This document shows, piece by piece, positions 8,369 through 54,824 of a DNA stretch of 64,000 nucleotides. Made by a program: the position numbers and the translations under genes. Position 1 is the stretch's first letter; each line of letters starts with the position of its first letter. The notes beneath the pieces are model-generated. The model had not been told where the DNA came from. It made no database searches and was given only the letters and a program-made list of their open reading frames with translations. This stretch comes from Chryseobacterium sp. 3008163 (GTDB taxonomy: Bacteria; Bacteroidota; Bacteroidia; Flavobacteriales; Weeksellaceae): positions 558,001 through 622,000 of the forward strand of contig NZ_CP033070.1 in NCBI RefSeq assembly GCF_003669035.1, in the 5' to 3' direction.

Positions 8369-9531
8369 ATGCTTAATTTCGAGTTAAAAAATCCAACAAA
8401 AATACTTTTCGGGAAGGGAGAAATCGCTAAAATTTCAAAAGAAGTTCCACAAGATGCCAAAGTCTTAATGATTTACGGTGGCGGAAGCATCAAAAGCAAT
8501 GGTGTTTACGATCAGGTAAAAGATGCTTTGAAAAACCATGATGTTCAGGAGTTCGGTGGTGTTCCTGCGAATCCTGAGTATGAAGTTTTAGTAAAAGCTT
8601 TACAATTTATCAAAGAAAATAATATCACTTATTTACTGGCTGTAGGAGGCGGATCTGTAATTGACGGTGTAAAATTCCTTTCAGCAGCAGCCAATTACAA
8701 TGGTGAACCTTGGGAAATTTTGAAAAAACCAGTGAGAACCCTTGAAGATGAAGGAATGCCCTTTGGTACTATTCTAACGTTACCAGCAACCGGTTCTGAA
8801 ATGAATTCAGGATATGTTATCTCTAGAAGAGAAACCAATGAAAAGCTATCGTCCGGCGGTCCAGGATTGTTTCCTCAATTCTCGGTTTTAGATCCTGAAG
8901 TCATCAGATCAATTCCAAAAAACAAATTGCAAACGGTATTGCCGATGCTTATACGCATGTTTTAGAACAATATATGACGTCACCATCTTCGGCTGATCTT
9001 CAGGAAAGAATTGCCGAAAGTATTCTAATCTCTCTACAAGAAACAGCACCTAAAGTAATGAACGAAAACTTTGATTACGATGCGGCAGGTAACTTTATGT
9101 GGTGTTGTACAATGGCGCTGAACGGACTTATTCAAAAAGGAGTAATTACCGACTGGGCAGTTCATGCAATGGGACACGAACTTACCGCTTATTATGGAAT
9201 TGACCATGCAAGAACACTCGCTGTAATCGCACCTTCTCACTACCGCTATAATTTTGAAACCAAAAAAGAAAAATTAGCTCAATACGCAGAAAGAGTGTGG
9301 AAAATAACTGAAGGAACTGTAGAACAAAAAGCAGAAGCTGCAATCAAAAAAATGGAAGCGTTTTTCCACAGTCTCGAAATTCAAACAAAACTTTCAGATT
9401 ACACCCCAGATTATCAAAACACAGCAGAGCGTGTAGAAAAAGCTTTTACAGAAAGAAACTGGCTGGGTCTGGGAGAAAATAAAAATCTTACACCGCAAGA
9501 TGCTTATAAAATTGTAGAAATGAGTTATTAG
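8369..9531 (+). pseudogene. Iron-containing alcohol dehydrogenase (YqhD/BDH type), frameshifted
   Basis: Two adjacent frames (8369-8965 and 8974-9531) together encode one family III alcohol dehydrogenase of 387 residues. The first half has the NAD(P)-binding segment GGGSIKSNGVYDQV and GGGSVIDGVKFL; the second contributes metal-ligand histidines in HAMGHELTAYYGIDHART. The break is at the A run 8917-8922. Six A give IPKNKLQTVL-stop, whereas seven A give the family sequence IPKKQIANGIADAYTH, which includes the missing metal-binding region. The product would be an NADPH-dependent aldehyde reductase with broad substrates. A TAAATTTG element at 8340-8347 is a plausible -7 box 21 bp before the ATG. 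The single missing base is probably a sequencing error. Confidence 0.88.
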
Positions 9532-35334: not shown

Positions 35335-36209
35335 ATGAAATTTAGTCAACGAATAGGTAAAAGTATCATAATAAAAGATATTCAAATTGAAAGTATTGAT
35401 AATGATCTAAAAAATGGACTTTGGAATATTTATGATCTCTACTTATTAGGGCGGATTAGTGAAGAATATGACTATTATCACAATGTAATCCCATCTGTCT
35501 TTTTCAGTAACTCTTTATGGCATAATTTATTTAAATATCCAATAGATCAAATACCTTCATACTTTCCTGATGTAAAAACCTCTATTAGAATTTTTTTTTC
35601 AATACTGATTGGTATAAACTTTATGACTTAATCGAATATAGTATAGAGCTAGCAGAAAATTCTATATTTACAGATTGTATAAATACAGAAGAATTATATG
35701 AAAATTTTAATCTAATTCTTGAAAGGGAATTTGCTGGATATAGATTTATTGACGGTGAACTTGTTCCAATAACCAACAAAACAGAAATAAAAGAGATTGA
35801 AGAATCTTTATTTATAACTCAAGACTTCACATCACTTAAATCTTGTAATACACATCTAAAATCATCATTATCAAAACTTTCTGATAGACTTAATCCCGAT
35901 TATAGAAACTCTATAAAAGAATCAATTTCAGCAGTTGAATCAATTTCAAAAATTATTTCAAATAATTCAAAAGATAGTTTGGGTGGCGCATTGGACAAAA
36001 TCAAAGGTAAATTAAAAATCCATTCCGCACTTGAAAGGGGTTTCAAACAAATCTATGGTTATACAAGTGATACAGATGGAATAAGGCATGCTTTGACTGA
36101 AGACAATAACTGTGATTTTGAAGATGCAAAATTTATGTTAGTATCATGTAGTGCTTTTATAAATTATTTAGTAATTAAAGCTGATAAAGCAGGAATTACT
36201 TTTAATTAA
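35335..36209 (+). pseudogene. AbiJ-like abortive-infection protein, broken by a 1-base contraction of a T run
   Basis: The N-terminal frame (MKFSQRIGKSIIIKDIQIES..NGLWNIYDL) has the look of the AbiJ N-terminal domain 4, whose members start with FSxRxG and a DxLRNxLWN segment. After the nine-T run at 35591-35599 the frame is lost. With ten T it continues through FFNTDWYKLYDLIEYSIEL and joins the C-terminal part (GGALDKIKGKLKIHSALERGF, EDAKFMLVSCSAFINYL), giving 291 residues. The C-terminal part resembles the HEPN-like domain found in Abi proteins, which act as RNases on phage infection. It is low in G+C and has its own canonical promoter. The family assignment is from pattern memory, not a search. 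Confidence 0.7.
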
Positions 36210-42104: not shown

Positions 42105-42188
42105 CTTGTGCGGATTAGGCAACAAATGTAGAGAATATCTTGATTGTGGCAAACTTTGAAAGTTTGGGATGAGTACTACAATTTTATG

Positions 42189-42886
42189 TTACTCTTTTCT
42201 CATCTTCGTTTTCATCAAATCAGTCAAAGAGACAGTAAATGGCAGACCTGCTCTTGAATATTTATTTGTCACATCCTCTAAGATTTTTTTGTACGTCTCC
42301 AATTCTTTAAAATCCCAGCTAACATTTTCAAATTCTATATCTGATGCTTTTTCAATCTCGATAGCCAAATAATATTCTTTTGGATTTTTTGATGGTGGGT
42401 AATTAAGCGTATCCAGATAACTTCTCGAGAACACTTTTAGACCTTTGCTTTTAATCTGGTACAAATCTGATGCATGTGCTTCACCTTTTTTTCTCAACAA
42501 TAAATATTTGGCATTCACCACATCATTATTGAGTTCTAAAGATCCAGTGTTGCCATCCATTCGGAAAATGTATTTCTTATTTTCTTCATACCATTTGAAA
42601 CGATCATTGGATGTGGAATATCCTATCAACACAAAAACCTCACTCGGAATTAGCTTTTTACCACTTATATATTCGGGGAGAGATTCGTGTAATAAGTGAT
42701 TATCGTCTTTAGGATTTTGATAAATCTGATGTGCTTTATGACTCACATTCTCTCTTTGAGATGCCCGATCTAACAAGTGAGCAATCACCAAATCAATAAA
42801 CTTAGATAATTCACTAATATCATCAGCTTTTCCATTTGGATTGACTGAAAAAGCACCCAACCCTGGAATAATTTCATGAAAACCTC
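42189..42886 (-). CDS. C-terminal part of the DUF2357 nuclease, out of frame with its N-terminal part
   Basis: A frame of about 230 codons that has no good start: its first candidate codon is TTG 42860, while coding-like sequence (GFHEIIPGLGAF) continues upstream into the A/T run shared with the previous gene. If the eight-T run at 42894-42901 had nine bases, it would be read as one protein with the gene at 42887-44542. The content includes the helical segment KFIDLVIAHLLDRASQ and then a compact domain EVFVLIGYSTSNDRFKWYEENKKYIFRMDG with LLLRKKG and LNYPPSKNPKEYYLAIEI, which I cannot name. It is the last part of the restriction operon. Confidence 0.7.
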
Positions 42887-44542
42887 TTATTTCTTTTTTT
42901 TCAGTTCCCGGATATAAAATATACGCACCACCCGATCTTCTGATCGCATCTTTGTAGCATGCATTTTCAGTAAGTCTACATTTTTATAAATACCTTTTCG
43001 CTCGTTTTCTTCTTCCTCTTCTAAATTAATATCTATATTTGTTTGAATCTGAAATTGTGTGACTTTATATTTAGCATCAAAATGAATATGAACAATTAAC
43101 TCTTGCCTCTCCGCTTCCTTTTCATTTAACATCGATGGCCATACAGATAATGTGTAATCCGGTCGCAATGTTGTCGTGTAACTTCCCGCAATATTATCTT
43201 TGTAATCTGTACCTCCTTTGAAAGAACGATTGTAAGAAAACTTCACTTTTAGGATTCTATTTTCTGTGACAAAATCACCATACAGCGCTGTGTGTTTTCC
43301 TTGCTTTACCATGACGTTCAAACCGTCTTTCGTTGGCTCTAATAAATGCTCATAAGGTTTTTCCTCGTACTCAATATCATTGATTTTAAATTTTGATTTA
43401 AACAAATCATACAAAGTAAAAAACAACCAATATTCATACAAAGTTGCGATATCTCTTTTTCCAGCTTTGTACACATCGTCACCACCTTTCCAAACTAATT
43501 TTGATGCTAAATCAAACTGCAACCATGCACTTAAAATTTCACGATAACCGCTCTTTCTTTGTAAAACCGGACTGTTTAATTTCAGGGAAGTTGGTCTTGA
43601 AATTTCTTTAAAAAATGACTGACTCAAATAACCATCTAACTGAGTTACCAAATTGGTAGCTTCCATGAATGGTCTTGAATAATTCTTTTCCTTAAAATAT
43701 TGCTGACAGTCTTCCACAAATTTCAAGAAGACCTCTAATGCGTGTTTTATAAATCTATTTTCAGGCGTATCGATATGTTCAATTTTCCCGAAACTATTGA
43801 TTTTACTTGGGATAGATTCAATTCCATTTTGGTATAAAGAATGAGATTGTTGCAACGGAATTCTATTAGAACCTGATGTAATTTGTTTTGTAGCAGAATT
43901 ATTAAATCTCTTTATTCTTCTGATGTCAACCACTTCTTGTTCTGTATTCCAAGTGGTTTTTGGAGAAGCCATAATTTTAAGTACCGCTTCCTCAAAATCT
44001 TTATTCTGAATGATACTATTTACAAAACTAAACCGTTGATAAATCGTTTCATTGTCTCTAGAAAAATCAGTTTCGAAATTTTGGTTTACCGGAGAATTGA
44101 TTTGCATTAACAGTTCGGTACACTTATCGGTAATATCTTTGAGCATATACCGGTAATTTTCCCGATAACTTTTATCTTCTTTGGTGTCGAACTTTGTTGC
44201 TAATACCTCAATTGTAATTTCAAATTCTTTTCCTGCTTGAGTTTCATCAGTTATAAATAAAGTGAGCGTCCCTACATAAATATTCGGAACAATTCTGCCC
44301 CTATAACGATCACGTTTGGATTGATAAACAATACTATCACATTTTAATCGATATGTTTTTTTACTAAAAAAGTATTCATAAAAGTTCCCTTCCAATATTT
44401 GAAAGACACTTTCACCATTTTCCCGAGCCACTTCTTCTGAAATTTGAAAAAGTTTTGCCTCGTTTTCAGGATAGATTTCTAAAAAATCTTCATCACTAAA
44501 AAATGGTAACGGAATTCGAATAAACTGTTTTGCTTCGTCCAT
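42887..44542 (-). CDS. DUF2357 / PD-(D/E)XK nuclease, McrC-like subunit
   Basis: A 551-residue frame whose C-terminus (RELKKKK) is caused by the A run; the full protein is probably 784 residues including the frame at 42189-42886. Residues about 20-310 match the layout of DUF2357. A nuclease core is suggested by YEYW (E370), RPDYTL (D462) and IHFDAKYKV (D489-x-K491), the D...(D/E)XK pattern, followed by DLLKMHATKMRSEDRVVRIFYI, which is usual in this nuclease family. It lies six bases after the McrB-like gene. Together they should be the cleavage and motor subunits of one enzyme, the position held by the LlaJI R2/McrC-type protein. Confidence 0.82.
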   Translation of the reverse strand: MDEAKQFIRIPLPFFSDEDFLEIYPENEAKLFQISEEVARENGESVFQILEGNFYEYFFSKKTYRLKCDSIVYQSKRDRYRGRIVPNIYVGTLTLFITDETQAGKEFEITIEVLATKFDTKEDKSYRENYRYMLKDITDKCTELLMQINSPVNQNFETDFSRDNETIYQRFSFVNSIIQNKDFEEAVLKIMASPKTTWNTEQEVVDIRRIKRFNNSATKQITSGSNRIPLQQSHSLYQNGIESIPSKINSFGKIEHIDTPENRFIKHALEVFLKFVEDCQQYFKEKNYSRPFMEATNLVTQLDGYLSQSFFKEISRPTSLKLNSPVLQRKSGYREILSAWLQFDLASKLVWKGGDDVYKAGKRDIATLYEYWLFFTLYDLFKSKFKINDIEYEEKPYEHLLEPTKDGLNVMVKQGKHTALYGDFVTENRILKVKFSYNRSFKGGTDYKDNIAGSYTTTLRPDYTLSVWPSMLNEKEAERQELIVHIHFDAKYKVTQFQIQTNIDINLEEEEENERKGIYKNVDLLKMHATKMRSEDRVVRIFYIRELKKKK

Positions 44543-44548
44543 ATTTCT

Positions 44549-46477
44549 TTACGCTTCTGCATAACTTGTAAAACCATTTGCCAAAACATTTTTATACATT
44601 CTGGTGAGCTTCTCAAAAGAAATTGGATATTTAACAGTTATTCCGTCGAAATTATTTTTATAAAGAGTATCATATTCTTTCTCAAAGTACTCATAGGAAA
44701 TATTTTCTAGACATAATACTGAAAGGGAAAGAAGAATCTTCACCAACTTACTTCTGGAACCATGAAGTTTTGGTAACAATTTTTGCATAATTGCAATATC
44801 TAAACAATCCTTATCTTGAAATGAAGGCTCCAGCATTTTTAATTTTGAAACCAATTGCAGGATTTCAGTTGCAGAACGATAGCCAAACTCAGCACCAACA
44901 TTTTTAAGTTGATTAAAAAATGAAATCAGCTCTTCTGAAATCTTAGGATTTTTTTCTAATTTGTAATCCTCAGAAATCTTTAAGAAACTTTCAGCCATAG
45001 AGACTCCTTGTCTTTCTAATTTTTTCAAATCAGGAACTCCCGGATTATCTAAGTAAGTATTGATTTCCTCCTCAGTAATTCTGAATTCTATTACATTGGC
45101 TCTGTCTAAAACTTTTGGACTGAACATATACGTCGTTTCATCAATATTCACTGTACCGATAATGAAAACATTTTTCGGCCAACCTATTTCTTGTGGAATT
45201 GCTTTTCCGTCAATACTTATTCTCTCTTTCCCTGTATATAATTTCATCTTGTCTTTAGACTCCATAATACTCAGGAAATCTGCAAAATAACGTTCTACGT
45301 GACTAAGATTCATCTCATCTAAAATTAGGAAGAAAGGTTTATTTTCATTACCTGCACTTTTTGCTTCCAATAACAAATGAATGATGCCACTATCTGGTGT
45401 AATATATTCTTCGGTAACCAAACCGTTCGGATAACCAACTAAAGGTTCACGATTCGTCCAATCTGCACCTACAGGAACAATTTTATATTGGGAATCGCTT
45501 TCGCAAATCCATTGAGCAAAGCTTTGTGCTATTTTGGTTTTCCCTGAACCTGATAAACCACTGAGGATTACAAAAGGTTTTGAGGTTAATGAGGCGATGA
45601 AACGTAGGATTAAGGATGGGGAGAAATTGAGGTTGGATTGTTGTACTATTTCTCTGAATGAATTTAAATTGAAATCAATTTGAGTAATTCTATTTTTAGA
45701 TAAGTTTTCCTTTAAAAACTTTAAATAATTTTTTTTACCCAGAATCGCTCTAGGCATATGTGTTGATGTTTTTAAACTAAATTCATAAAACTCACCTTCT
45801 TCTAGATATAGATTTTTTTCTATTTGAGATATAAATTCATTTAAATCTATTTCAGGTAAGCTAAAAATAGATGTTCCAAATTGTTGATTATATACAGAAT
45901 CATATTTAGTTAATTGTTCAATAAAATTAGATCGTTTTGAACCAAATGAATCTGTAAAATAATTATGCTTTAAACCATCATCCTTGATAAACCAATCGGC
46001 GAAATCTTCCTTCAAATTTACTAAGTCAGTATTATCAATAAATGAAAAATCATGATATATTTCTTGATCATCTTCAATGACAAGTTCATGATTTCTACCA
46101 CTTAGAATAGCCTTATAGGTATTGTAGGATGCTGTTCCATCAGGTATGAACTCAAATTCATATGATTCCTTATTAATCGCTCTAAAAACAATTACATCCT
46201 CAATTTTTGCTTTTAAATCATCTCGGAAAAACTGTTTAAGTTCTCCATCTATACGCGATTCGCTTTTAGCAGAATACAATCTAGTTTTGATAATTTTCCC
46301 ATTAAATAAATAGAAAGGAGAAGAAACGTCTGTATCTTTGAACTTAAAGCTTATTCTTCTCTCAGGATCATCATCGCTAAAACTAAATTTAAAAAATACA
46401 TTAGAAGGTTCTGTAGGAAAAGCAATCTGCTTTCCATCTCTAAGATCCTGCGTGAAAAGATTTCTTATATAAATCAT
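44549..46477 (-). CDS. McrB-like AAA+ restriction motor with N-terminal DNA-recognition domain
   Basis: A 642-residue protein. Residues about 1-150 form a domain (RLYSAKSESRIDGELKQFF, VIVFRAINKESYEFEFIP) that resembles the B3/EcoRII-N type DNA-binding fold known from LlaJI R1. From about 280 comes an AAA+ module of the McrB branch: Walker A GLSGSGKT (307-314), VGADWTNREPLVGYPN, Walker B FFLILDEMNLSHVERYF and FIIGTVNIDETTYMFSPKVLDRA with the arginine finger. McrB-type proteins hydrolyse GTP and move on DNA until they trigger the nuclease subunit. The gene starts 9 bp after the second methyltransferase and ends 6 bp before the nuclease gene. Confidence 0.88.
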   Translation of the reverse strand: MIYIRNLFTQDLRDGKQIAFPTEPSNVFFKFSFSDDDPERRISFKFKDTDVSSPFYLFNGKIIKTRLYSAKSESRIDGELKQFFRDDLKAKIEDVIVFRAINKESYEFEFIPDGTASYNTYKAILSGRNHELVIEDDQEIYHDFSFIDNTDLVNLKEDFADWFIKDDGLKHNYFTDSFGSKRSNFIEQLTKYDSVYNQQFGTSIFSLPEIDLNEFISQIEKNLYLEEGEFYEFSLKTSTHMPRAILGKKNYLKFLKENLSKNRITQIDFNLNSFREIVQQSNLNFSPSLILRFIASLTSKPFVILSGLSGSGKTKIAQSFAQWICESDSQYKIVPVGADWTNREPLVGYPNGLVTEEYITPDSGIIHLLLEAKSAGNENKPFFLILDEMNLSHVERYFADFLSIMESKDKMKLYTGKERISIDGKAIPQEIGWPKNVFIIGTVNIDETTYMFSPKVLDRANVIEFRITEEEINTYLDNPGVPDLKKLERQGVSMAESFLKISEDYKLEKNPKISEELISFFNQLKNVGAEFGYRSATEILQLVSKLKMLEPSFQDKDCLDIAIMQKLLPKLHGSRSKLVKILLSLSVLCLENISYEYFEKEYDTLYKNNFDGITVKYPISFEKLTRMYKNVLANGFTSYAEA

Positions 46478-46486
46478 TTAAATTAT

Positions 46487-47698
46487 CTAATTCTGGTTTA
46501 TAATCGACTCAAATACTGATTCTGCTATCCTCATCGCCATTAATGGTGGAACAGCATTTCCAACTTGCATGTATGTTTCTTGTTGATTACCAATAAATAC
46601 AAAATCGTCAGGAAAAGATTGAATCCTAGCTGCTTCCCTAACAGATAAGGTTCTATCTTCGGTTGGATGAATATACATATAACCGTCCATGCCAATATGA
46701 GCTAGAACAGTCCAGGATGGATTTTCTTCTACCAATCTCTTTAATCTATCCTTAAAAATATCTTCTCTGAATGGTAAAACTTTTCTAATTTCTGGTGGCA
46801 AATCCATGTAAATACATCCCTGGTACATGTGTGAAAATACAATTTTCGCTCTTTCGTTCGTTAGTCTACAAATATTGTTTTTCACTGTTGTTCCCGAGTT
46901 TTTTCTCATCAATTTCTGATAAGAATCTAAATCTTTTTGTTTACTATATTCCACCTCGGAAACTCTCCAATTATCTGTGATTTTGGGTAAATCAGATATT
47001 GCGCTTTTCACTGAAATATGCTTTTCTAATTTTTCAGCATCAATATCTGTATTATTGGGATTAATATTAAATTTGCCTTCTCTAAACCAATGCGTGATTT
47101 CAGGATATTTAAAATTTATTCCTTTTAAATATCCAACCAAAATCATCCTTCTTCTGTTTTGAGGTACTCCATAATTTACACTATTCAATACTTTAACTTC
47201 CTCAACTAAATCATATTCGGGTAAATCTCTTTTGATAATTTCTTTAACAGCATTGAAAGTTGCGCCTTTGTACTTTGTTAAAAATTGAGGTACATTTTCC
47301 ATTACAAACATTTTTGGTCTGAAATAATCTACATAATTGAAGAAATCCAAGAACAAATCGTTTCTTGGATCATTAGTTATATCCTTATCAATATGTTCCT
47401 TGTAAACGGATTGGATTTTTGCATGACCGATAGTGCTAAATGTTGGGCAAGGCGGTCCTCCTATAATTAAATCTACTTTTTGACCATTCAATAGTTTTTC
47501 AAATTCTTCAGGTGGAACATTTCGAATATCATCACATATTGAAATTGAATCTTTAAAATTATGTTTATGTGTTTCAATCGCAGAAGATTTATTGTCTATT
47601 CCTCCAATACATTTGAACTTACCTGTCATTTCAAATCCTTTCGCAAATCCACCTGCTCCACAGAATAGGTCAATAAAGTTATATGTTTTGTTTGGCAT
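46487..47698 (-). CDS. DNA (cytosine-5) methyltransferase 2
   Basis: A 403-residue m5C methylase that protects one recognition sequence or one strand of an asymmetric site. Motif I is DLFCGAGGFAKGFE, motif IV GGPPCPTFSTIG with the catalytic cysteine (C84), motif VI MENVPQFL, motif VIII around QNRRRMILVGY, motif IX REAARIQSFPDDF and motif X YMQVGNAVPPLMA. The target-recognition region between VIII and IX is about 150 residues. It is paralogous to methylase 1 in the same operon, and their C-terminal motif sequences are almost identical. Its start overlaps the end of the HNH gene by 20 bp, so translation is coupled. Confidence 0.94.
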   Translation of the reverse strand: MPNKTYNFIDLFCGAGGFAKGFEMTGKFKCIGGIDNKSSAIETHKHNFKDSISICDDIRNVPPEEFEKLLNGQKVDLIIGGPPCPTFSTIGHAKIQSVYKEHIDKDITNDPRNDLFLDFFNYVDYFRPKMFVMENVPQFLTKYKGATFNAVKEIIKRDLPEYDLVEEVKVLNSVNYGVPQNRRRMILVGYLKGINFKYPEITHWFREGKFNINPNNTDIDAEKLEKHISVKSAISDLPKITDNWRVSEVEYSKQKDLDSYQKLMRKNSGTTVKNNICRLTNERAKIVFSHMYQGCIYMDLPPEIRKVLPFREDIFKDRLKRLVEENPSWTVLAHIGMDGYMYIHPTEDRTLSVREAARIQSFPDDFVFIGNQQETYMQVGNAVPPLMAMRIAESVFESIINQN

Positions 47699-49097
47699 GA
47701 TACTTAAAATAGTGGGCTGTTTCTTTTTTAAAATAATTACATTTTTTATCTTCTAAATTTAAAATGTAATCGGTAAGTGGTTCAGTGGTATTTTTGTTTT
47801 CTAGATTACTATGAATATATCCATCTTTTATATAGATATATCCTTCTTCATAAATTTTATCACACCCAAAATGACAAGCGGGCATAACAATATTTAAATC
47901 TCTCTTTTCTTCTTCAGAACAATCTTTTCTCTTTTTTATATGTGCAGTTGCTAGAAATTTTATTGGATAGTCTTTTTGACATATTGCACATTGACAACTA
48001 TCTTTACTTTTAGTCAAATAGTTTCTAAGAATATACTGTTCTGTTCTCCTTCTTGATATGGTTTCTCTATCTAAAGAAGCTAACCTTTTTAATTGATTTG
48101 CAATTTTAAACAACTCGAACTCTTCTGACTTAAACTCCTTTGTCTCAATGTGGACAGTTTTAAATATATCTTTTTGATCTAAGTGAATATCAACCTTCTG
48201 TAACCAATTATTTATTCGTTCATGATCATAAAGATAATTTGAATAGTTAAAAGCTAATTCTCTATTTCGTTCACTTACTGTTCTGTCAAATTCAAATACA
48301 TCATTTGAGTTTTCAATTATTGAGTCAATCGTTTCAAGGATGTTTTCAGATTGGACAAGCCCTAAAAATAAATCATTTGTCTCAACATAATTTAAAGGAT
48401 TATCACTTAAAACTGATGAGTTTTTAAGAAACCCTTTCGGATAGGACAAATGTGGACCTTTTTCTAAGGTTTTGTATATTTCCCATCCGCCATTTTTTCT
48501 TAATTTAACTATATCTTCCGCCCATATTTTTGAACTATCCAAATTGAAAGTTTTTCCTGAGCCTTTGTAAAATTGATAACCGATCCAATAGAATTCTGAA
48601 TTCGAAAAATATGATGCATCTGGAGAAATTAAATAAAGTTCTTTTAGAATGGATAAAAGTACCTGATATGGTTTTACGAATGGAAAATCTAACCTTTGAT
48701 TATTGATAATTAAATCTAAGTTTTTAATATATTTTTGATCATTATGCGTTACGATTGGATGCGGATATTGCCATTGGCTCAATAAATAATCAAATAGAAT
48801 TTCAGATGGTTTAGTATTATGATTATCATATTCATCAGAAATATATTCAAGTAAGGGAATCCTATCAAAGCTATTGTCAGAGTTTAATTTTTTTATCCCA
48901 AGAAAATTAAATATTGTGATAATGCTATCCCAATATCTTAAGTTGTCCTTATCATAGTATACTGAACACTTTTCATTGACTTCTGCTCTATGGTACTCTT
49001 CACCATATAAAGATTGAATAAAACCAAAATGATCATCTTCTCCAAAAAGAGTACTTGGTTTTAATTGGCCAACAGACGGAATACTAAAAAATATCAT
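47679..49097 (-). CDS. HNH endonuclease-domain protein within the RM operon
   Basis: A 472-residue protein. The first 350 residues are unassigned and mainly helical, with many aromatic and Asn/Asp residues. The C-terminus holds an HNH-like module with zinc ligands: CAIC (C370, C373), AHIKKRKDC (H386), then VMPACHFGCDKIYEEGYIYI (C408, C412). This is the pattern of HNH nucleases linked to restriction systems, so the protein probably cuts DNA near the sites protected by its neighbours. The stop codon of methylase 1 and this start share one base, and the gene overlaps methylase 2 by 20 bp. I do not recognise the N-terminal domain. The sequence is noticeably AT-rich. Confidence 0.8.
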   Translation of the reverse strand: MIFFSIPSVGQLKPSTLFGEDDHFGFIQSLYGEEYHRAEVNEKCSVYYDKDNLRYWDSIITIFNFLGIKKLNSDNSFDRIPLLEYISDEYDNHNTKPSEILFDYLLSQWQYPHPIVTHNDQKYIKNLDLIINNQRLDFPFVKPYQVLLSILKELYLISPDASYFSNSEFYWIGYQFYKGSGKTFNLDSSKIWAEDIVKLRKNGGWEIYKTLEKGPHLSYPKGFLKNSSVLSDNPLNYVETNDLFLGLVQSENILETIDSIIENSNDVFEFDRTVSERNRELAFNYSNYLYDHERINNWLQKVDIHLDQKDIFKTVHIETKEFKSEEFELFKIANQLKRLASLDRETISRRRTEQYILRNYLTKSKDSCQCAICQKDYPIKFLATAHIKKRKDCSEEEKRDLNIVMPACHFGCDKIYEEGYIYIKDGYIHSNLENKNTTEPLTDYILNLEDKKCNYFKKETAHYFKYHAKQNI

Positions 49098-50299
49098 TAT
49101 AAAAACTTTTTAATTGCTTTTGCTATTTGTTGCGCCATTAAAGGTGGAACAGCATTACCGACTTGTTTGAATTGATTTGTTCTAGAACCCATAAATACAA
49201 AATCATCAGGAAAAGACTGAATTCTCGCAGCTTCTCTTACTGTAAATGTTCGCTCTTGTTTATGATCCGGATGAATAAATAAATTACCATCCTTATAAAG
49301 ATGTGCAACTACAGTTGTCCCAGGTAAATTATTTTTCTGCACTGTATATCTATTTCCAAAATGTTTAGGATCATGATGCACCAATTCAGGACTTACTTCA
49401 GCTAAGTGCTTTAATTGCCATTCGTTCTTACTTAGTAATTGGTATCTTTTTCTATCATTCTCATTATGTCTCCTTGCCTCATGATTGAACAATTTATCAA
49501 AATCAGATGTTCTTATTTTTTTTAAATAAGGATTAAATTTTGAAGGTTTAAACTCAATTTCATTTTTTCCTTCGCCCGGAAATAATTTAGGTAAATCAGA
49601 TATTGCTTCTTTTACAGTAACATACTTAGAGAAACCATCTGTATTACCTTTAGTTTCCATTTCTGGACTATAATGAGTTTTAATAATATTTCTATAAATA
49701 TTTTTTGCTGTAAATTTCAAATCCTTTCTTACACCAACAATAATAACTCTTTTTCTTATTTGTGGAACTCCATAATGAACAGAGTTAAGTAATAGCGTTT
49801 CTTTGTCATCACATACATCATAGTATTTAGACATTTCTGCAATTATTTTAGGAAAGATAAATTCGCCATTAGGTTTTGCTGATAACAAGCCTGAAACATT
49901 TTCAAAAACAAAAACTTTAGGCATATACTTTTCTAAAATTTTCAGATAATTTAGAAATAAATAATTTCTAGGATCATCAAACATTGAATTAGGATCTTGT
50001 GCTCTTCCAACTGTTGAAAAACTTTGGCAAGGTGGACCACCAACTAAAACATCAACTTTTGAATCTTTAACAATATTTTCTATATGAACATTGATTTCTT
50101 CTTTTGTTAAATCACCACATATTACACTATTCTCAATTTCTTCTTGAGAATAATCATAATATTTCATTCTTTCCTTTATTGTAAGACAAGCTGCTTCATC
50201 AAAGTCAACATGAACTAATGATTTAAAACCTTCTTTATAAAAACCTTCACTCAATCCTCCACAACCTGCGAATAGATCTATAAATGTATAATTACTCAT
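49097..50299 (-). CDS. DNA (cytosine-5) methyltransferase 1
   Basis: A 400-residue m5C methylase, first gene of the restriction operon. Motif I DLFAGCGGLSEGFY, motif IV GGPPCQSFSTVG with the catalytic cysteine (C91), motif VI FENVSGLL, motif VIII QIRKRVIIVGV, motif IX REAARIQSFPDDF and motif X FKQVGNAVPPLMA are all present in normal order. The variable target region (about 200-325) differs from that of methylase 2, consistent with methylating a different sequence or the opposite strand. Being first allows the DNA to be protected before the nuclease subunits are made. A possible promoter lies about 110 bp upstream. Confidence 0.94.
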   Translation of the reverse strand: MSNYTFIDLFAGCGGLSEGFYKEGFKSLVHVDFDEAACLTIKERMKYYDYSQEEIENSVICGDLTKEEINVHIENIVKDSKVDVLVGGPPCQSFSTVGRAQDPNSMFDDPRNYLFLNYLKILEKYMPKVFVFENVSGLLSAKPNGEFIFPKIIAEMSKYYDVCDDKETLLLNSVHYGVPQIRKRVIIVGVRKDLKFTAKNIYRNIIKTHYSPEMETKGNTDGFSKYVTVKEAISDLPKLFPGEGKNEIEFKPSKFNPYLKKIRTSDFDKLFNHEARRHNENDRKRYQLLSKNEWQLKHLAEVSPELVHHDPKHFGNRYTVQKNNLPGTTVVAHLYKDGNLFIHPDHKQERTFTVREAARIQSFPDDFVFMGSRTNQFKQVGNAVPPLMAQQIAKAIKKFL

Positions 50300-50674
50300 T
50301 TTTATTTGCTTTTTTTGAAACCATAATAATTACTTAAACAAATAATCTATTTCATGATTAATTTTTTCTACTAAATAAAATAAATATTATTTAAAAGAAA
50401 ATTCCTCCAAAAATACAAAATCTACTATCAAAAAACGACAATGAACTCTACTGATTTCATAATCATTCAATAAATAGTATCAAATTATTTTTTATTTAAT
50501 TCTGATTCCCGAACCACCTACTTTCTAATATTATACCCATCTGAAAACACTTTAAAAATATACAGCAGTTCTGAGAAATCAACGTTTTAGCACTGAGGAT
50601 TCTAATCAGATACTTAAAAGTAAAGCCCCGATTTGAGAACAAAACGAGACTTTACGGATAAAAACAAGGTTTCT
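50300..50674. promoter_or_regulatory. Gap upstream of the RM operon, with candidate promoter
   Basis: 375 very AT-rich bases without a gene. On the minus strand TTG (50441-50439), a 23-bp spacer and TATTTTTG (50415-50408) form a consensus-type promoter about 110 bp before the methylase 1 start. A weak hairpin (GTAAAG at about 50622, CTTTAC at about 50650) lies behind the MFS gene stop. I saw no controller-protein (C-box) operator. Confidence 0.4.
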
Positions 50675-52264
50675 TTATAGCGCAGGACCGGCTGCGCCTT
50701 TGATGTCTTCTTCTAATTTTTTTCTTTCACGGGCTCTACGTCTCGCGATGACCGATTTTCCGTTGAGGATTCTTATCACTCTTAAATATTCTGTACGTTT
50801 TCCAAAATGATGGGTAATCACGTAGAGCATTACCCCGAAACCGGCAACGATGATGTAACCGAATATCTTTTTATTGGCAGATATGATGGCGTTGAGCTGA
50901 ATGCTTTTCATATTGGCAGCAACGGTCTGTGGCGTGATGGTCATTCCGTCCATATAAACAGCCAAATCTCCTAAACTGACAATTTGAAACTGATACTGAA
51001 ACCACGAGAACAAAGCTGAGAAAAATCCTACCGCAAGGAAGGTTCGCCATACCAAAACCAGTCCGATGGCCGCCAGCATTTCGTTGAGTTCCAATTTATC
51101 TAAGGTGTAATACCAAACTGAAATGAAGAGTGAACACATTCCGTAACCTTTCAGGAACATCGGTAAGTACCAGTTTTCGTAATTGAATTCCAGCACCATC
51201 GAAAAGTACATAATGATGGCATAAGCAGTCATTGAAGCGAAGCCTGAAAAAATGAACATTTTGAGCGGTCGTTCTTTTTTAAACCAAAATACAGCGATGA
51301 CTCCGGCTAAGAATATTCCGGGCGTCATCATTACATTCAGTTTGGCATTGGTCAATTGGTCATAACCTAAAACTCCAACTGAATAGATGTTTTGAATCGA
51401 TGTTGTTCCTAAAAACATTCCCAGCCACAAAAGCATAAACAATCCGTTCAACACATTGCTTTTTGTAAAAATATGAAATGAAATATACGGTCTTTTTAAA
51501 GTCATCTGACGAATCGCCAGTAAGGCAAAACTCACAAATGCTGCGATGCTGGCGTTGATGATATTTTTCGAATTGAGCCAATCCTGCTGTTTTCCAAATG
51601 AAAAAACATACGCCGAAAACATAAAGGTCGACACAAACAGAATGATGCTCAGCCAATCGATGTAATGCAACGGAACTTTTAAGGCAAAATATTTATCGTG
51701 CATCAAAACCCAACACAAAATCGCCAGCACAAAACACAATACGGCTGCCAAGATAAAAAACTGCTGATAATTGTACAGCACCGAAACTTCCACTGCATAA
51801 TAAGCAGAGACCTGATTTAATATCAAAACAAATGTGTAGAAAACTCCGTAAAAAATCCCACGTCCGCCGAGCATTGCCATCAGCGGAAGAAATAACTCAA
51901 TGGTAATCATCATTTTTAAAAATCCGATTACCAAAGAGGTTATCACAATAATCATTGGTTCAAAAGTGGTTGCGTTGATATAACTTAATGCACCGAGAAG
52001 CACCAATAAAATCACAACTTTATCACGCACTTTGAATCGCATTTTCATTCTTAAAACCACAGGCATACACGCTCCCATCCCAATGGTGGTGGCATAATTT
52101 GCCCACAGAAAATATTCCTGCATCACACCGGTTCCGCCCACCATAAAACTGATGTTTCCGGTGTAAACGCCACCCAACGGCATTACCACAGTAAGCAGTA
52201 AAACCATCATCAGGAGCTGCACGGGTTTCGGAACCCAATCGCTGAAAAGACCTTTATTATACAT
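50675..52264 (-). CDS. MFS efflux transporter (EmrB/DHA2-like)
   Basis: A 529-residue major facilitator with about 12-14 hydrophobic segments, starting near VQLLMMVLLLTVVMPLGGVYTG and ending in FGYIIVAGFGVMLYVITHHF followed by a basic C-terminal tail (RRRARERKKLEED). It is the inner-membrane pump of a tripartite drug exporter. The classical MFS motif A is not obvious, so the family placement rests on topology, length and its neighbours: a membrane fusion protein and a TolC-type channel directly upstream on the same strand. It is the third and last gene of that operon. Confidence 0.85.
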   Translation of the reverse strand: MYNKGLFSDWVPKPVQLLMMVLLLTVVMPLGGVYTGNISFMVGGTGVMQEYFLWANYATTIGMGACMPVVLRMKMRFKVRDKVVILLVLLGALSYINATTFEPMIIVITSLVIGFLKMMITIELFLPLMAMLGGRGIFYGVFYTFVLILNQVSAYYAVEVSVLYNYQQFFILAAVLCFVLAILCWVLMHDKYFALKVPLHYIDWLSIILFVSTFMFSAYVFSFGKQQDWLNSKNIINASIAAFVSFALLAIRQMTLKRPYISFHIFTKSNVLNGLFMLLWLGMFLGTTSIQNIYSVGVLGYDQLTNAKLNVMMTPGIFLAGVIAVFWFKKERPLKMFIFSGFASMTAYAIIMYFSMVLEFNYENWYLPMFLKGYGMCSLFISVWYYTLDKLELNEMLAAIGLVLVWRTFLAVGFFSALFSWFQYQFQIVSLGDLAVYMDGMTITPQTVAANMKSIQLNAIISANKKIFGYIIVAGFGVMLYVITHHFGKRTEYLRVIRILNGKSVIARRRARERKKLEEDIKGAAGPAL

Positions 52265-52280
52265 TTTTTTATAGATATTA

Positions 52281-52356
52281 GATTTCAGATATTAGACATC
52301 AGATTTCCAGCGTTCTTCATTTTCTTACTTCAAGTCTGGAATCTGAAATCTGAAAT
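52281..52356. repeat. Repeat of ATTTCAGAT/ATCTGAAAT words
   Basis: CAGATTTCCAG (52300-52310) and CTGGAATCTG (52336-52345) are near-perfect inverted arms. ATTTCAGAT at 52282 and ATCTGAAATCTGAAAT at 52341 add further pairing. It lies between the fusion-protein and pump genes inside the efflux operon. Confidence 0.6.
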
Positions 52357-52359
52357 CGT

Positions 52360-53487
52360 TTAGTCTTTAATTGAAACATTCATATTCATCCCCGCACTCA
52401 GTTTTGCGACATCTTCTTTTTTATTGGCGTCTGTGAACTCGATTCTTACGGGAATTCTCTGTTGCACTTTGATAAAGTTACCAGTTGAGTTATCTGTCGG
52501 AACGCTTGAATATCTTGAACCCGTTGCTGCTGAAACTGCGGTGACTACGCCTTCAAACTGTTTTCCACCTAAAGCATCTGCTGTCATCATTAACTTTTCA
52601 CCAATTTTAATATTCGGCATTTGACTTTCCAAGAAGTTGGCTGTGACCCATTTTTGATTGTTTAAAACGATAGTGGCAACTTGTTGTCCGGGCTGAATTA
52701 ACTGTCCTTCAGAAATCGTTCTTCTTCCCATCACACCGTCGTAAGGCGCTGTAATTACGGTGTACGAAAGATTGATTTTAGCCATATCCAAAGCGGCTTT
52801 TGTTCTTTTGATTTCAGCATCATTGATTCCCAACTTACTTTTCACTTCCGTTGTAGAAAGGTTGGCAGATTGCTTCTGATTGACCAAAGTTTCGTAGGCT
52901 GCTTTCTGCGCATCATATTCAGTTTTGGCTTGGTCAAATTGTTGTCTGGTTACTGCCTCTGCAGCTAAAAGGTTTTTGTATCTGCCTAAATTCTGTTCGG
53001 CATTCCACAATCTTGCCTTTGCACCGGCTATGTTGGATTCCATCACGCTGACATTGTTGGAAACGGTATTAATTGAAGAACCTGTAGCAGAACGCTGAGC
53101 CAATGCATTTTGATACGCTGCTTCCGCTTGTCCTAATTGGGTAATGATTTCACGGTCGTCCAAAATGGCTAACGTATCTCCTTTTTTCACCTGCTGATGT
53201 TCGATGAATTTTATTTCTTTAATGTAAGCTGAAACTCTTGTGTTGATTGGATTGATGAATTCCTCCACCTGAGCCGCTTCTGTATAGGTTTTGTCACCGA
53301 TGTGGAAATACTGACGAATCAGCCAGAACAATCCGAAACCTATCAATGCAAAAACGACAACGTTTGAAATGATGGCTCTGATTTTATTCTTTCTGTTTTG
53401 TTTTTTCTTAGCATCAACGTTTGAAACCACAGGTTTTGCTGCTGTTTGTGGTTGTGTATCTTGAGTATTTTGTTCCTTGTTTTCCAT
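52360..53487 (-). CDS. EmrA/HlyD-family membrane fusion protein
   Basis: A 375-residue periplasmic adaptor. A cytoplasmic N-terminus rich in Gln/Lys is followed by one membrane anchor (about 43-60, VVVFALIGFGLFWLI), then a lipoyl/barrel-sandwich half-motif (VSAYIKEIKFIEHQQVKKGDTLAILD), a long alpha-helical hairpin (about 105-225, with several coiled-coil-like stretches) and the second half-motif ITAPYDGVMGRRTISEGQLIQPG. The C-terminal beta domain ends in GMNMNVSIKD. It links the MFS pump to the outer-membrane channel. It is preceded by the tolC-type gene by 26 bp. Confidence 0.92.
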   Translation of the reverse strand: MENKEQNTQDTQPQTAAKPVVSNVDAKKKQNRKNKIRAIISNVVVFALIGFGLFWLIRQYFHIGDKTYTEAAQVEEFINPINTRVSAYIKEIKFIEHQQVKKGDTLAILDDREIITQLGQAEAAYQNALAQRSATGSSINTVSNNVSVMESNIAGAKARLWNAEQNLGRYKNLLAAEAVTRQQFDQAKTEYDAQKAAYETLVNQKQSANLSTTEVKSKLGINDAEIKRTKAALDMAKINLSYTVITAPYDGVMGRRTISEGQLIQPGQQVATIVLNNQKWVTANFLESQMPNIKIGEKLMMTADALGGKQFEGVVTAVSAATGSRYSSVPTDNSTGNFIKVQQRIPVRIEFTDANKKEDVAKLSAGMNMNVSIKD

Positions 53488-53513
53488 TGTTTTTGATTTT
53501 CAGTTTTAAATAA

Positions 53514-54824
53514 TTAAAGCGTCCCAGTAGATTTCAATAAATTGTAATATTGATACAGCACATTGATTTCCGCATTGGCAAAGTCCAATTCAGATTGAAG
53601 TTTTTGGTTTTGCGCATCAATCATTTCTGCCTGCACCGCCAATTGATTGAGGTATTTTGCTTCAGTGATTTTATAGTTTTCTTCGGCCAGTCTTTTTGAA
53701 TCGTTTAAAATATCTGCTTGCTGAATTGCTTCCTGATATTTTACATAAGATGCATTGACATTCATATCAATATTCTGTTGCGTTAAAGTCAGCGCATCAT
53801 TTGCCTGTGTTTTCTGCAATTCACCCAACTTTACTTTCTCTTTAGTTTTATATAAATTATCAATATTATAACTTAAAGAAATTCCGCCTTGCCAACCGCT
53901 TGCGTACATATCCAAAACAGGATTTCTATTGGTAATCGGTCTTTGCAAACTGTAGCCTCCAAAACCTGAAAGCGTCGGCATTCTGTCAGTTTTAATGATT
54001 TCAATATTTTTGTCGGCCACACCAATGTTGGTTTGTGCAGATTTTAGTTGCGGATTGGTATCGTGAGCAAGATTTAAATAATAATCCATTCCGATTCCTG
54101 ATTCTTTATTGCCTAAATTTTCAACAGGAATAATTTCTGTATCCGCAGGCAATCCCAAAGCGATATTTAAATTGTAATTAAGGATTTTTCTGTTGTTGGA
54201 TAACGTAAGAATTCCCTGATCTAAATTTTTAATCGCCAATTCAGCACGGATGACTTCATTTCTCGTCAGCATTCCCTGTTTGTAAAAATCGTTGATGTTC
54301 TTCAATCGTTGCTGAGCCAGTTTTTTGTTGTTTTCAAAAACCGATTGTTGATTAATGATTTTATAAACATCTAAATAATTTGAGATCACTAAAAATTTAA
54401 CGTCCTGCTTATTCTTTTCTAAATCCAGTTCAGAAAGCTGTTCACGAAGGCCTGCCAATTCGACAGATTTATTAACCAATCCACCTTTAAAAATAAGTTG
54501 AGTAGCCTGCACGCCATACGTACTTCCGTAATGAGGCATCTGAATGGTTGTAGAATTTGAGAAATCTTTATCGATCGCAACCACATTTCCCAAATAAAAC
54601 TGAGTAGTGGAAGCCGTTATTGAAGGAAGCTTCTGAAGTTTGGTAATATCCGTCTGCTGTTTGGCAATATTGATATTCTGCGCAGAAACTTTTAACTGAT
54701 AGTGATTCTGAAGTGCCAGTTCGGCGACTTCATTCGCTGTCATCTGTTTTATTTCTTGTGAAAAAAACAGCGCAGGAAAGATAGTCACTACAAGCGATAG
54801 TGCTGTTTTTATGTTCTTTGTCAT
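53514..54824 (-). CDS. TolC-family outer membrane efflux protein
   Basis: A 436-residue outer-membrane channel protein. A signal peptide (about 1-22, ending FFSQ) precedes two repeated halves of long helices and strands, shown by MTANEVAELALQNHYQLKVSAQNINIAKQQ and again by YLNLAHDTNPQLKSAQTNIGVADKNIEII, with GFGGYSLQRP strand segments. Trimers should form the duct through which the EmrAB-like pump exports drugs. It is the first gene of the operon. It is preceded by a TAnnTTTG-type box (54844-54851) and a 22-bp perfect palindrome that may be its operator. Confidence 0.92.
   Translation of the reverse strand: MTKNIKTALSLVVTIFPALFFSQEIKQMTANEVAELALQNHYQLKVSAQNINIAKQQTDITKLQKLPSITASTTQFYLGNVVAIDKDFSNSTTIQMPHYGSTYGVQATQLIFKGGLVNKSVELAGLREQLSELDLEKNKQDVKFLVISNYLDVYKIINQQSVFENNKKLAQQRLKNINDFYKQGMLTRNEVIRAELAIKNLDQGILTLSNNRKILNYNLNIALGLPADTEIIPVENLGNKESGIGMDYYLNLAHDTNPQLKSAQTNIGVADKNIEIIKTDRMPTLSGFGGYSLQRPITNRNPVLDMYASGWQGGISLSYNIDNLYKTKEKVKLGELQKTQANDALTLTQQNIDMNVNASYVKYQEAIQQADILNDSKRLAEENYKITEAKYLNQLAVQAEMIDAQNQKLQSELDFANAEINVLYQYYNLLKSTGTL

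Follow-up and report, generated by a model that had tools for sequence, protein, structure and literature searches.

The five co-directional genes on the minus strand of the Chryseobacterium sp. 3008163 stretch analysed here (64,000 nucleotides, hereafter the window) appear, with a probability of roughly two in three, to join two restriction systems in one operon: a Type IIS-like system, in which an HNH endonuclease is accompanied by two DNA cytosine-5 (m5C) methyltransferases, and a motor-driven arm of the LlaJI type, comprising a McrB-like protein with a B3-like N-terminal domain and a DUF2357/PD-(D/E)XK nuclease. The first gene encodes the methylase M1 (49097..50299, 400 aa), and is followed by those for the HNH protein (47679..49097, 472 aa), which is a putative Type IIS-like restriction endonuclease, the second methylase M2 (46487..47698, 403 aa), the McrB-like AAA+ protein with the motif N-I-D-E (44549..46477, 642 aa) and the McrC-like DUF2357 nuclease (42887..44542, 551 aa as encoded), whose frame is broken. 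M1 and the HNH gene overlap by 1 nt and the HNH gene and M2 by 20 nt, with gaps of 9 nt between M2 and McrB and 6 nt between McrB and DUF2357. The promoter presumably lies in the upstream intergenic stretch (50300..50674, minus strand), which has no listed ORF of at least 60 aa. The same-direction operon proposed in the initial annotation is borne out, with all five genes recovered; of the span assigned to it (42189-50299) the gene content stands, but its assigned start, 42189, marks where another ORF ends, one corresponding to the C-terminal part of the DUF2357 protein.

In blastn comparisons with loci L193-L195 the homology of the flanks stops at 42153-42159 and restarts at 50610-50616, and the whole block of about 8.45 kb (42160..50609, boundaries within about 10 bases) is an insertion when set against two congeneric genomes. 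This, along with the recurrence of the gene set, indicates that the cassette is more than a chance juxtaposition: the five-gene order was found again at locus L005. Orthologues of M1 and M2, respectively, immediately precede and follow the HNH gene in all six other loci, and the HNH gene lies between two m5C methylases in every one of the seven loci read, the window counted. In five of the six other loci the M1-HNH-M2 triad occurs without the McrB/DUF2357 pair, and such a McrB is also absent from those five genomes. As the triad can stand alone, the McrB/DUF2357 pair is the added part, and not the HNH gene, as had been initially proposed. The same distribution speaks against a single five-subunit LlaJI-like machine, towards which the initial annotation leaned, in which the HNH protein would serve the McrB/DUF2357 complex as a second-strand nicker or in DNA processing. 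Such a machine would accord with the LlaJI.R1-type N-terminal domain of the McrB and with the overlapping genes of a shared operon, but the HNH protein appears from its predicted fold to possess a recognition domain of its own, and we regard this alternative as unlikely.

Both M1 and M2 match PF00145 (2.4e-65 and 4.9e-65), and define two different m5C methyltransferases within one operon. This supports the original proposal of a restriction-modification operon whose paired m5C methylases would suit an asymmetric site, and we infer that the two are cognate to the nucleases of the operon.

The HNH protein recovered no model in Pfam (E<=0.1), PADLOC or NCBIfam (E<=0.01), and its profile had no match among PDB sequences, where a single-sequence search yielded only chance matches. 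It typifies a family of 69 proteins (clusters; E<=1e-3, its own protein counted), and an alignment of 24 of these shows an almost invariant CxxC...AHIKKR...C...MPAC..GCD region along with a variable asparagine in the HNH motif. In a structure model with a mean pLDDT of 89, residues 1-311 (48165..49097) and 334-472 (47682..48098) match different folds. The former give their best structural alignment with the site-reading domains of Type IIS enzymes, and the latter, predicted to be the HNH nuclease domain, are nearest to VcaM4I and TagI. The model hence suggests separate recognition and cleavage domains, as in Type IIS enzymes, which cut beyond the sequence that they recognise. A Foldseek search with the model returned nothing at E<=1e-3 (best 1.7e-3), and the likeness to Type IIS enzymes would not reach significance by Foldseek alone. 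The affinity of the nuclease domain to VcaM4I and TagI could alternatively imply a modification-dependent endonuclease rather than a cognate Type II enzyme; given the Type IIS-like alignment of the recognition half and the unvarying position between the two methylases, this is very improbable. The as yet uncharacterised family, with its Type IIS-like recognition half linked to a different type of nuclease domain, could be a practical source of new cutters.

Several Type IIS enzymes, namely N.BspD6I/R.BspD6I, BpuJI and FokI, possess a recognition domain with a fold resembling that predicted for the HNH protein; the nuclease domains of BpuJI and FokI are of the PD-(D/E)XK type, and the cassette differs from all three in having an HNH domain. 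Conversely, the HNH Type IIS enzymes HpyAV/Hin4II, Eco31I and MnlI, as far as available descriptions go, combine HNH catalysis, an asymmetric site and two methylase activities in the manner proposed here. HpyAV and Hin4II, likened by description and not by sequence, are paired with one m5C and one m6A methylase, unlike the two m5C methylases of the cassette. Similarly, the available description of a restriction-modification island of E. coli NILS69 has two methylases that restrain an HNH endonuclease; these methylases are encoded on the opposite strand, and that description mentions no McrB pair.

The McrB-like protein has a McrB-type AAA+ motor in residues 273-475 (45053..45661), and matches E. 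coli McrB in PDB (3.5e-5). It also matches PDC-M26A of the PADLOC candidate system PDC-M26 (5.5e-50), and among the matches listed none of the other five scanned sequences has a PDC-M26 hit. Its residues 1-136 (46070..46477) are predicted from sequence to be a B3-like site-specific DNA-binding domain of the LlaJI.R1 type. LlaJI, encoded on the Lactococcus plasmid pNP40 and compared here only through published papers and PDB 6c5d, the LlaJI.R1 of Helicobacter pylori, is described as having likewise two m5C methylases, a McrB-like R1 with a B3 N-terminal domain and a PD-(D/E)XK partner; the LlaJI-type site is GACGC/GCGTC. However, the LlaJI genes are reported in the order M1-M2-R1-R2 (PMC1459862), whereas the cassette has the order M1-HNH-M2-R1-R2 and falls outside a definition of LlaJI as M1-M2-R1-R2 without another nuclease. 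It is further distinguished from LlaJI by the HNH endonuclease between the methylases and by a partner nuclease of the DUF2357/PDDEXK_7 type in place of RE_LlaJI (PF09563). The DUF2357 protein matches PF09823 (1.7e-40) and PF04411 (PDDEXK_7, 1.9e-14), and neither it nor the genome has a match to PF09563, which among 14 control genomes was recovered in B. subtilis. BsuMI, by definition, has three restriction genes alongside two methylases. Thus, of the LlaJI-like subunits initially proposed, the motor is upheld by its N-terminal domain, but a LlaJI-type R2 is not. Three plasmid regions, one of Lactococcus with an AAA/nuclease pair and no adjacent listed methylase, one of Streptococcus containing a HaeIII-type system and one of Hymenobacter with a methylase, were each rejected as LlaJI systems.

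The expectation that the McrB would group with LlaJI.R1 held for its N-terminal domain; the motor half and the DUF2357 partner are nearest to pairs with other N-terminal domains. The closest motor half (86%) is that of P0122, for which the precomputed Pfam domain is PF12102 (MrcB_N), as it is in several of the close pairs with other N-terminal domains. In a tree of the motor halves, with 10 of 27 inner branches open and long branches for P0105, G383 and G552, the HNH-linked McrBs do not group together and at least two changes are forced. The alignment of the McrB comprises 37 sequences. From the comparison of loci, L118-L122 (whose McrBs resemble that of the window at low identity and chiefly beyond the N-terminal domain), the distant L152 and weaker McrB matches were left out, and G1029 and G1061 were not counted again, since they coincide with G499 and G307. 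Methylases do occur at L120 and L122/L153 among these. McrBs with the same N-terminal domain are also found on long contigs without a listed HNH relative, namely those of P0118 (2507493), P0101 (434316), P0081 (98712), P0130 (51576), P0106 (49258) and P0123 (34755), which implies that the HNH-McrB link is not absolute.

The affinities of the motor half and of the DUF2357 partner, together with the lack of an adjacent M1 or M2 relative in 11 of the 17 close loci read (two of the 11 at contig ends), could also mean that the pair is an ordinary modification-dependent Type IV enzyme that shares the operon and acts on modified or foreign-methylated DNA. The McrBC Type IV systems and the NxD branch of McrB share with the cassette the McrB motor with its NxD motif, DUF2357 and the nuclease, and the available part of the CoCoNuT census reports methylase associations of NxD GTPases. 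The cassette differs from them in the two probably cognate m5C methylases of its operon and in the match of its McrB to a putative B3-like reader domain instead of one that reads modified bases. In the available accounts of LlaJI.R1 such a domain reads unmodified sites (PMC12707154, PMC7680126); moreover, a protein that reads m5C would be expected to endanger its own host when encoded next to two m5C methylases. A Type IV role is therefore rather improbable. A further parallel is PcaI of Pectobacterium. In its published description this is a McrB-like and DUF2357 pair that restricts unmethylated DNA and has a cognate m5C methylase; as described it differs from the cassette in having one methylase, the site CCNGG and an operon without an HNH gene, the HNH enzyme of the same host, PcaII, being methylation-dependent and encoded by a separate gene (PMC8989522).

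Computation supports the composition and recurrence of the cassette, the autonomy of its M1-HNH-M2 core, both predicted recognition folds and the insertion; cleavage, the site, GTP use, the consequence of methylation and a common specificity are inferred. The joining of a Type IIS-like system to a LlaJI-type arm suggests a mechanism in which M1 and M2 would each methylate a cytosine in an asymmetric site, one enzyme for each strand. When that site is unmethylated, the HNH protein would bind it by means of its BspD6I/BpuJI-like domain and cut with its HNH domain, and a hexamer of the B3-McrB would bind unmethylated DNA, translocate at the expense of GTP and bring the DUF2357 nuclease to cut. 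The B3-McrB probably reads the same site as the HNH protein, such that a single pair of methylations would make both cutters safe. A usual restriction system pairs one methylation with one cutter; here one methylase pair would probably protect the cell from two unlike ones, one compact and the other motor-driven. More tentatively, at somewhat under even odds, this might be a form of dual restriction, wherein a single pair of methylases would license two unrelated site-specific restriction machines, each with its own fold for recognising a common asymmetric site. The McrB/DUF2357 pair would then be a plug-in, joined to Type II systems that are already complete through a swap of its N-terminal reader, and phages able to evade or inhibit one cutter would still face the other. 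Should the two arms share a site, the cassette would represent a naturally layered form of restriction, with two levels under one licence, and would illustrate how McrBC-like motors are recruited by cognate methylases, namely through exchange of reader domains.

The second arm may be inactive in this strain, or the break in its DUF2357 frame may be an assembly error. The ORF at 42189-42860, which is open back to 42893, encodes in a different frame the last ~234 aa of the DUF2357 protein, and this displaced part (42189..42893, minus strand) is no gene of its own. A sixth gene was ruled out by its match to the C-terminal part of single-ORF relatives, and its hits to CdiA_C (0.0056) and PilX (0.053) lie below the cut-off and were treated as chance. 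In all 18 close loci read the protein is a single ORF of 757-800 aa, and 110 of 119 other homologues (from the best 120 of 4875) have at least 700 aa. Relative to these the frame is lost at a conserved motif at the end of the nuclease domain, consistent with a true pseudogene that leaves only M1-HNH-M2 working, which would be compatible with the main reading and is quite possible, if less than an even bet. However, the PD and DAK residues of the nuclease, chosen by eye, precede the break, and a further gene of the window, conserved and encoding an iron alcohol dehydrogenase, is likewise split, suggesting assembly indels. Programmed -1 frameshifting at an A-run followed by G ahead of the stop was rejected, since comparison with relatives shows the frame to be already off upstream of the run, within the conserved-motif stretch.

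With respect to mobile elements, viral contigs gave no confirmed relative of either the HNH family or the McrB N-terminal domain, and in plasmids the latter domain had no match. When McrB residues 1-160 were searched against 397 genomes from a different family, the one match was weak (5e-4, 34%) and fell in a lipoprotein-like ORF of ~270 aa; it was taken as chance. Plasmid matches of the HNH protein (15 records, none covering 80%) are confined to its C-terminal domain, and those of the McrB (268 records) likewise all cover less than 80% of the query, with a maximum of 62% among the 30 listed. M1 matches 4615 plasmid records, with the 40 listed at ~38-40% identity and one further record, outside those 40, in the 60-80% band.

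The five genes are all encoded on the minus strand, in the order m5C methylase M1 (49097-50299), HNH protein (47679-49097), m5C methylase M2 (46487-47698), McrB-like AAA+ protein (44549-46477) and DUF2357/PD-(D/E)XK protein (42887-44542), and either overlap or are spaced by 6-9 nt, bearing out the initial annotation, which described five co-directional, closely packed genes. The start of its span at 42189 did not hold as the edge of these genes, as it takes in an ORF (42189-42860) that is the C-terminal part of the DUF2357 protein. This ORF was rejected as a gene of its own: in DUF2357 relatives its counterpart is the last ~230 residues, and its translation, when opened back to 42893, starts partway through a conserved segment. 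The relatives are single ORFs of 757-800 aa at all 18 close loci read (L005, L113-L117, L145-L151 and L172-L176), and 110 of the 119 other homologues among the best 120 of 4875 listed are at least 700 aa long. The break interrupts the sequence coding for a conserved motif that closes the nuclease domain, and copies with an intact frame exist elsewhere. A frame break elsewhere in the window, in a gene for an iron-containing alcohol dehydrogenase, makes an assembly error quite possible, and the two broken genes together suggest either assembly indel errors or unusual gene decay. The alcohol dehydrogenase occupies two plus-strand ORFs in different frames, 8369-8965 with PF00465 and 8974-9531 with ADH_Fe_C.

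The five genes constitute one inserted block. In a comparison of 40 genus genomes, the window's own among them, the gene flanking the operon on the low-coordinate side was present in four, and both flanks were read in three genomes besides the window's (G251, G262 and G220). The flanking genes adjoin each other in G251 and G262, whose homology to the window stops at 42153-42159 and picks up again at 50610-50616. In G220, whose two flank genes are more like the window's (96% and 94%) than those of any other genome compared, the operon's place is taken by a single gene of 1048 aa (L193 2479-5625), with Pfam ResIII, DUF3427 and PLD domains and a match to a PADLOC Type IV restriction model (6.4e-229). 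Since this helicase gene of Type IV restriction type occupies the same place, the insertion site looks like a defence hotspot. The G+C content in 2-kb windows is 0.29-0.33 within the block, and 0.33-0.35 and 0.35-0.40 in the two flanks. An efflux-like set lies upstream and co-directional with the operon (50675-54824, minus strand), comprising a protein of 529 aa that matches no Pfam family and is transporter-like by eye, an HlyD-like protein and an OEP outer-membrane protein. A 98-aa ORF elsewhere in the window (35335-35631, plus strand) matches the AbiJ N-terminal domain (PF18863, 1.5e-11) and may be left over from another defence gene.

Full-length copies of the HNH gene are scarce within the family and order, being found in one of 296 family genomes and one of 395 order genomes, the window's own both times; the remaining matches (one family and two order genomes) cover the C-terminal domain alone. 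A search of 84,980 species genomes, keyed on two short patterns and hence escaped by relatives without both, confirmed 87 loci, and among the best 80 kept only six matched over the whole length (L003-L008, from Olleya, a Flavobacteriales MAG, Maribacter orientalis and records labelled Alphaproteobacteria, OCS116 and Rickettsiales). All six carry M1-HNH-M2 in the same order, with identities to the window of 53-72%, 39-59% and 54-78%, respectively. Only in Maribacter orientalis (L005) do McrB (45%) and DUF2357 (51%) follow this core, so that the five-gene order, whose recurrence the initial annotation had left to be sought, recurs in one of the six core loci. In the other five the gene after M2 is unrelated, and an McrB like the window's is absent from these genomes at E<=1e-3, four of them being labelled MAG and perhaps incomplete. 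As these loci have no adjacent McrB/DUF2357 pair and their genomes no such McrB, the core can exist independently of the motor pair, and a single machine of five subunits is the less well supported reading.

At the core-only loci the HNH protein is the sole restriction enzyme in sight. It could be a methylation-dependent enzyme, which is less well supported beside its position between two m5C methylases in all seven loci read, the window included. An HNH endonuclease restrained by two methylases, described in E. coli NILS69 (PMC12409345), resembles the core HNH protein in this respect and may or may not belong to the same family. Systems already known include LlaJI, McrBC, HNH Type IIS systems, PcaI (PMC8989522) and a LlaJI-like four-gene system in Clostridium cellulovorans (PMC11779793). 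No report of the five-gene combination was found in the literature searched, of which coverage was partial.

The McrB/DUF2357 pair appears to be a plug-in module. Seventeen further close loci were read from the best matches of the McrB searches, excluding L152 as distant and L118-L122 for low identity, and in most of them the match to the window McrB is confined to the motor half. Relatives of M1 or M2 adjoin the pair in six: one methylase with a Vsr-like gene (by eye) in L114 and L150, a double methylase in L151, a methylase with two further genes in L173, an M1 relative 56% identical to the window's with a second methylase and two small genes in L174, and an HTH gene, a methylase and a 377-aa protein in L146, the last matching a PADLOC Type II REase model (7.6e-198) and Pfam NgoFVII_C (7.8e-12). 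The other 11 lack an adjoining M1/M2 relative, the only kind of methylase sought, with L145 and L147 lying at contig ends. In L174 (10183-11534) and L153 (3183-3860), where a 54-56% M1 relative is present and HNH absent, the second methylase is separated from McrB by small genes of 214, 236 and 225 aa; the 236-aa gene gives a weak hit to Type IV restriction (1.9e-5) and the 225-aa gene none to Pfam.

Among the loci read, the B3-like, LlaJI.R1-like N-terminal domain of the window McrB (residues 1-136), the proposed site reader, was found in the window and L005 only, both with HNH, and in none of the 17 other pair loci. A further six contigs of the protein collection apparently carry an HNH gene together with McrB (five contigs) or DUF2357 (one contig), as judged from identical longest-contig sizes (30328, 61170, 8513, 11812, 7787, 12137) and shared source. 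All five of these McrBs have the same N-terminal domain, though the list they come from, the top 120 of 7999 by similarity to the window McrB, is biased towards that domain. A strict link between HNH and reader is weakened by several McrBs with this domain on long contigs with no HNH relative listed (e.g. Winogradskyella sp. Asnod2-B02-A). The nearest relatives of the motor half have different N-terminal domains (P0122, 86%), and the contigs of the 89-90% DUF2357 relatives P0192 and P0194 appear, by size, to carry McrBs (P0133, P0076) matching the window's over about 60% only; the motor module thus changes readers. These relationships would accord with a Type IV pair sharing the operon by chance, which is less well supported beside an N-terminal domain resembling that of LlaJI.R1, a reader of unmodified sites. 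From the reader domain and the M1-HNH-M2 co-occurrence, we infer that HNH and B3-McrB read one same site. M1 and M2 would each methylate one strand of this asymmetric site, the HNH enzyme would cut unmarked DNA near it, and the B3-McrB/DUF2357 machine, where intact, would also cut unmarked DNA, after translocation.

A related HNH domain is often found in ~320-aa proteins starting ILQPSGNKDAREHY (L009-L018, L020, L044, L046, L061, L143 and others) from Bacillota, Pseudomonadota, Bacteroidota and candidate phyla. Three of four scanned against Pfam had no match and one only a match below cut-off. By eye, they often adjoin or closely follow a MazG-like gene encoding about 110-120 aa, with PF12643 in all three such genes scanned. 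In Olleya and two relatives (L003 2429-15502, L172 3646-17786, L173 723-18001) the cassettes have a polA-like neighbor, with a YgiQ-like gene and/or a ~1280-aa secreted protein nearby (all by eye). The cassettes differ, being M1-HNH-M2, a lone McrB/DUF2357 pair, or a methylase with 966-aa and 515-aa proteins and McrB/DUF2357, and this stretch looks like a defence hotspot where core and pair modules could meet.
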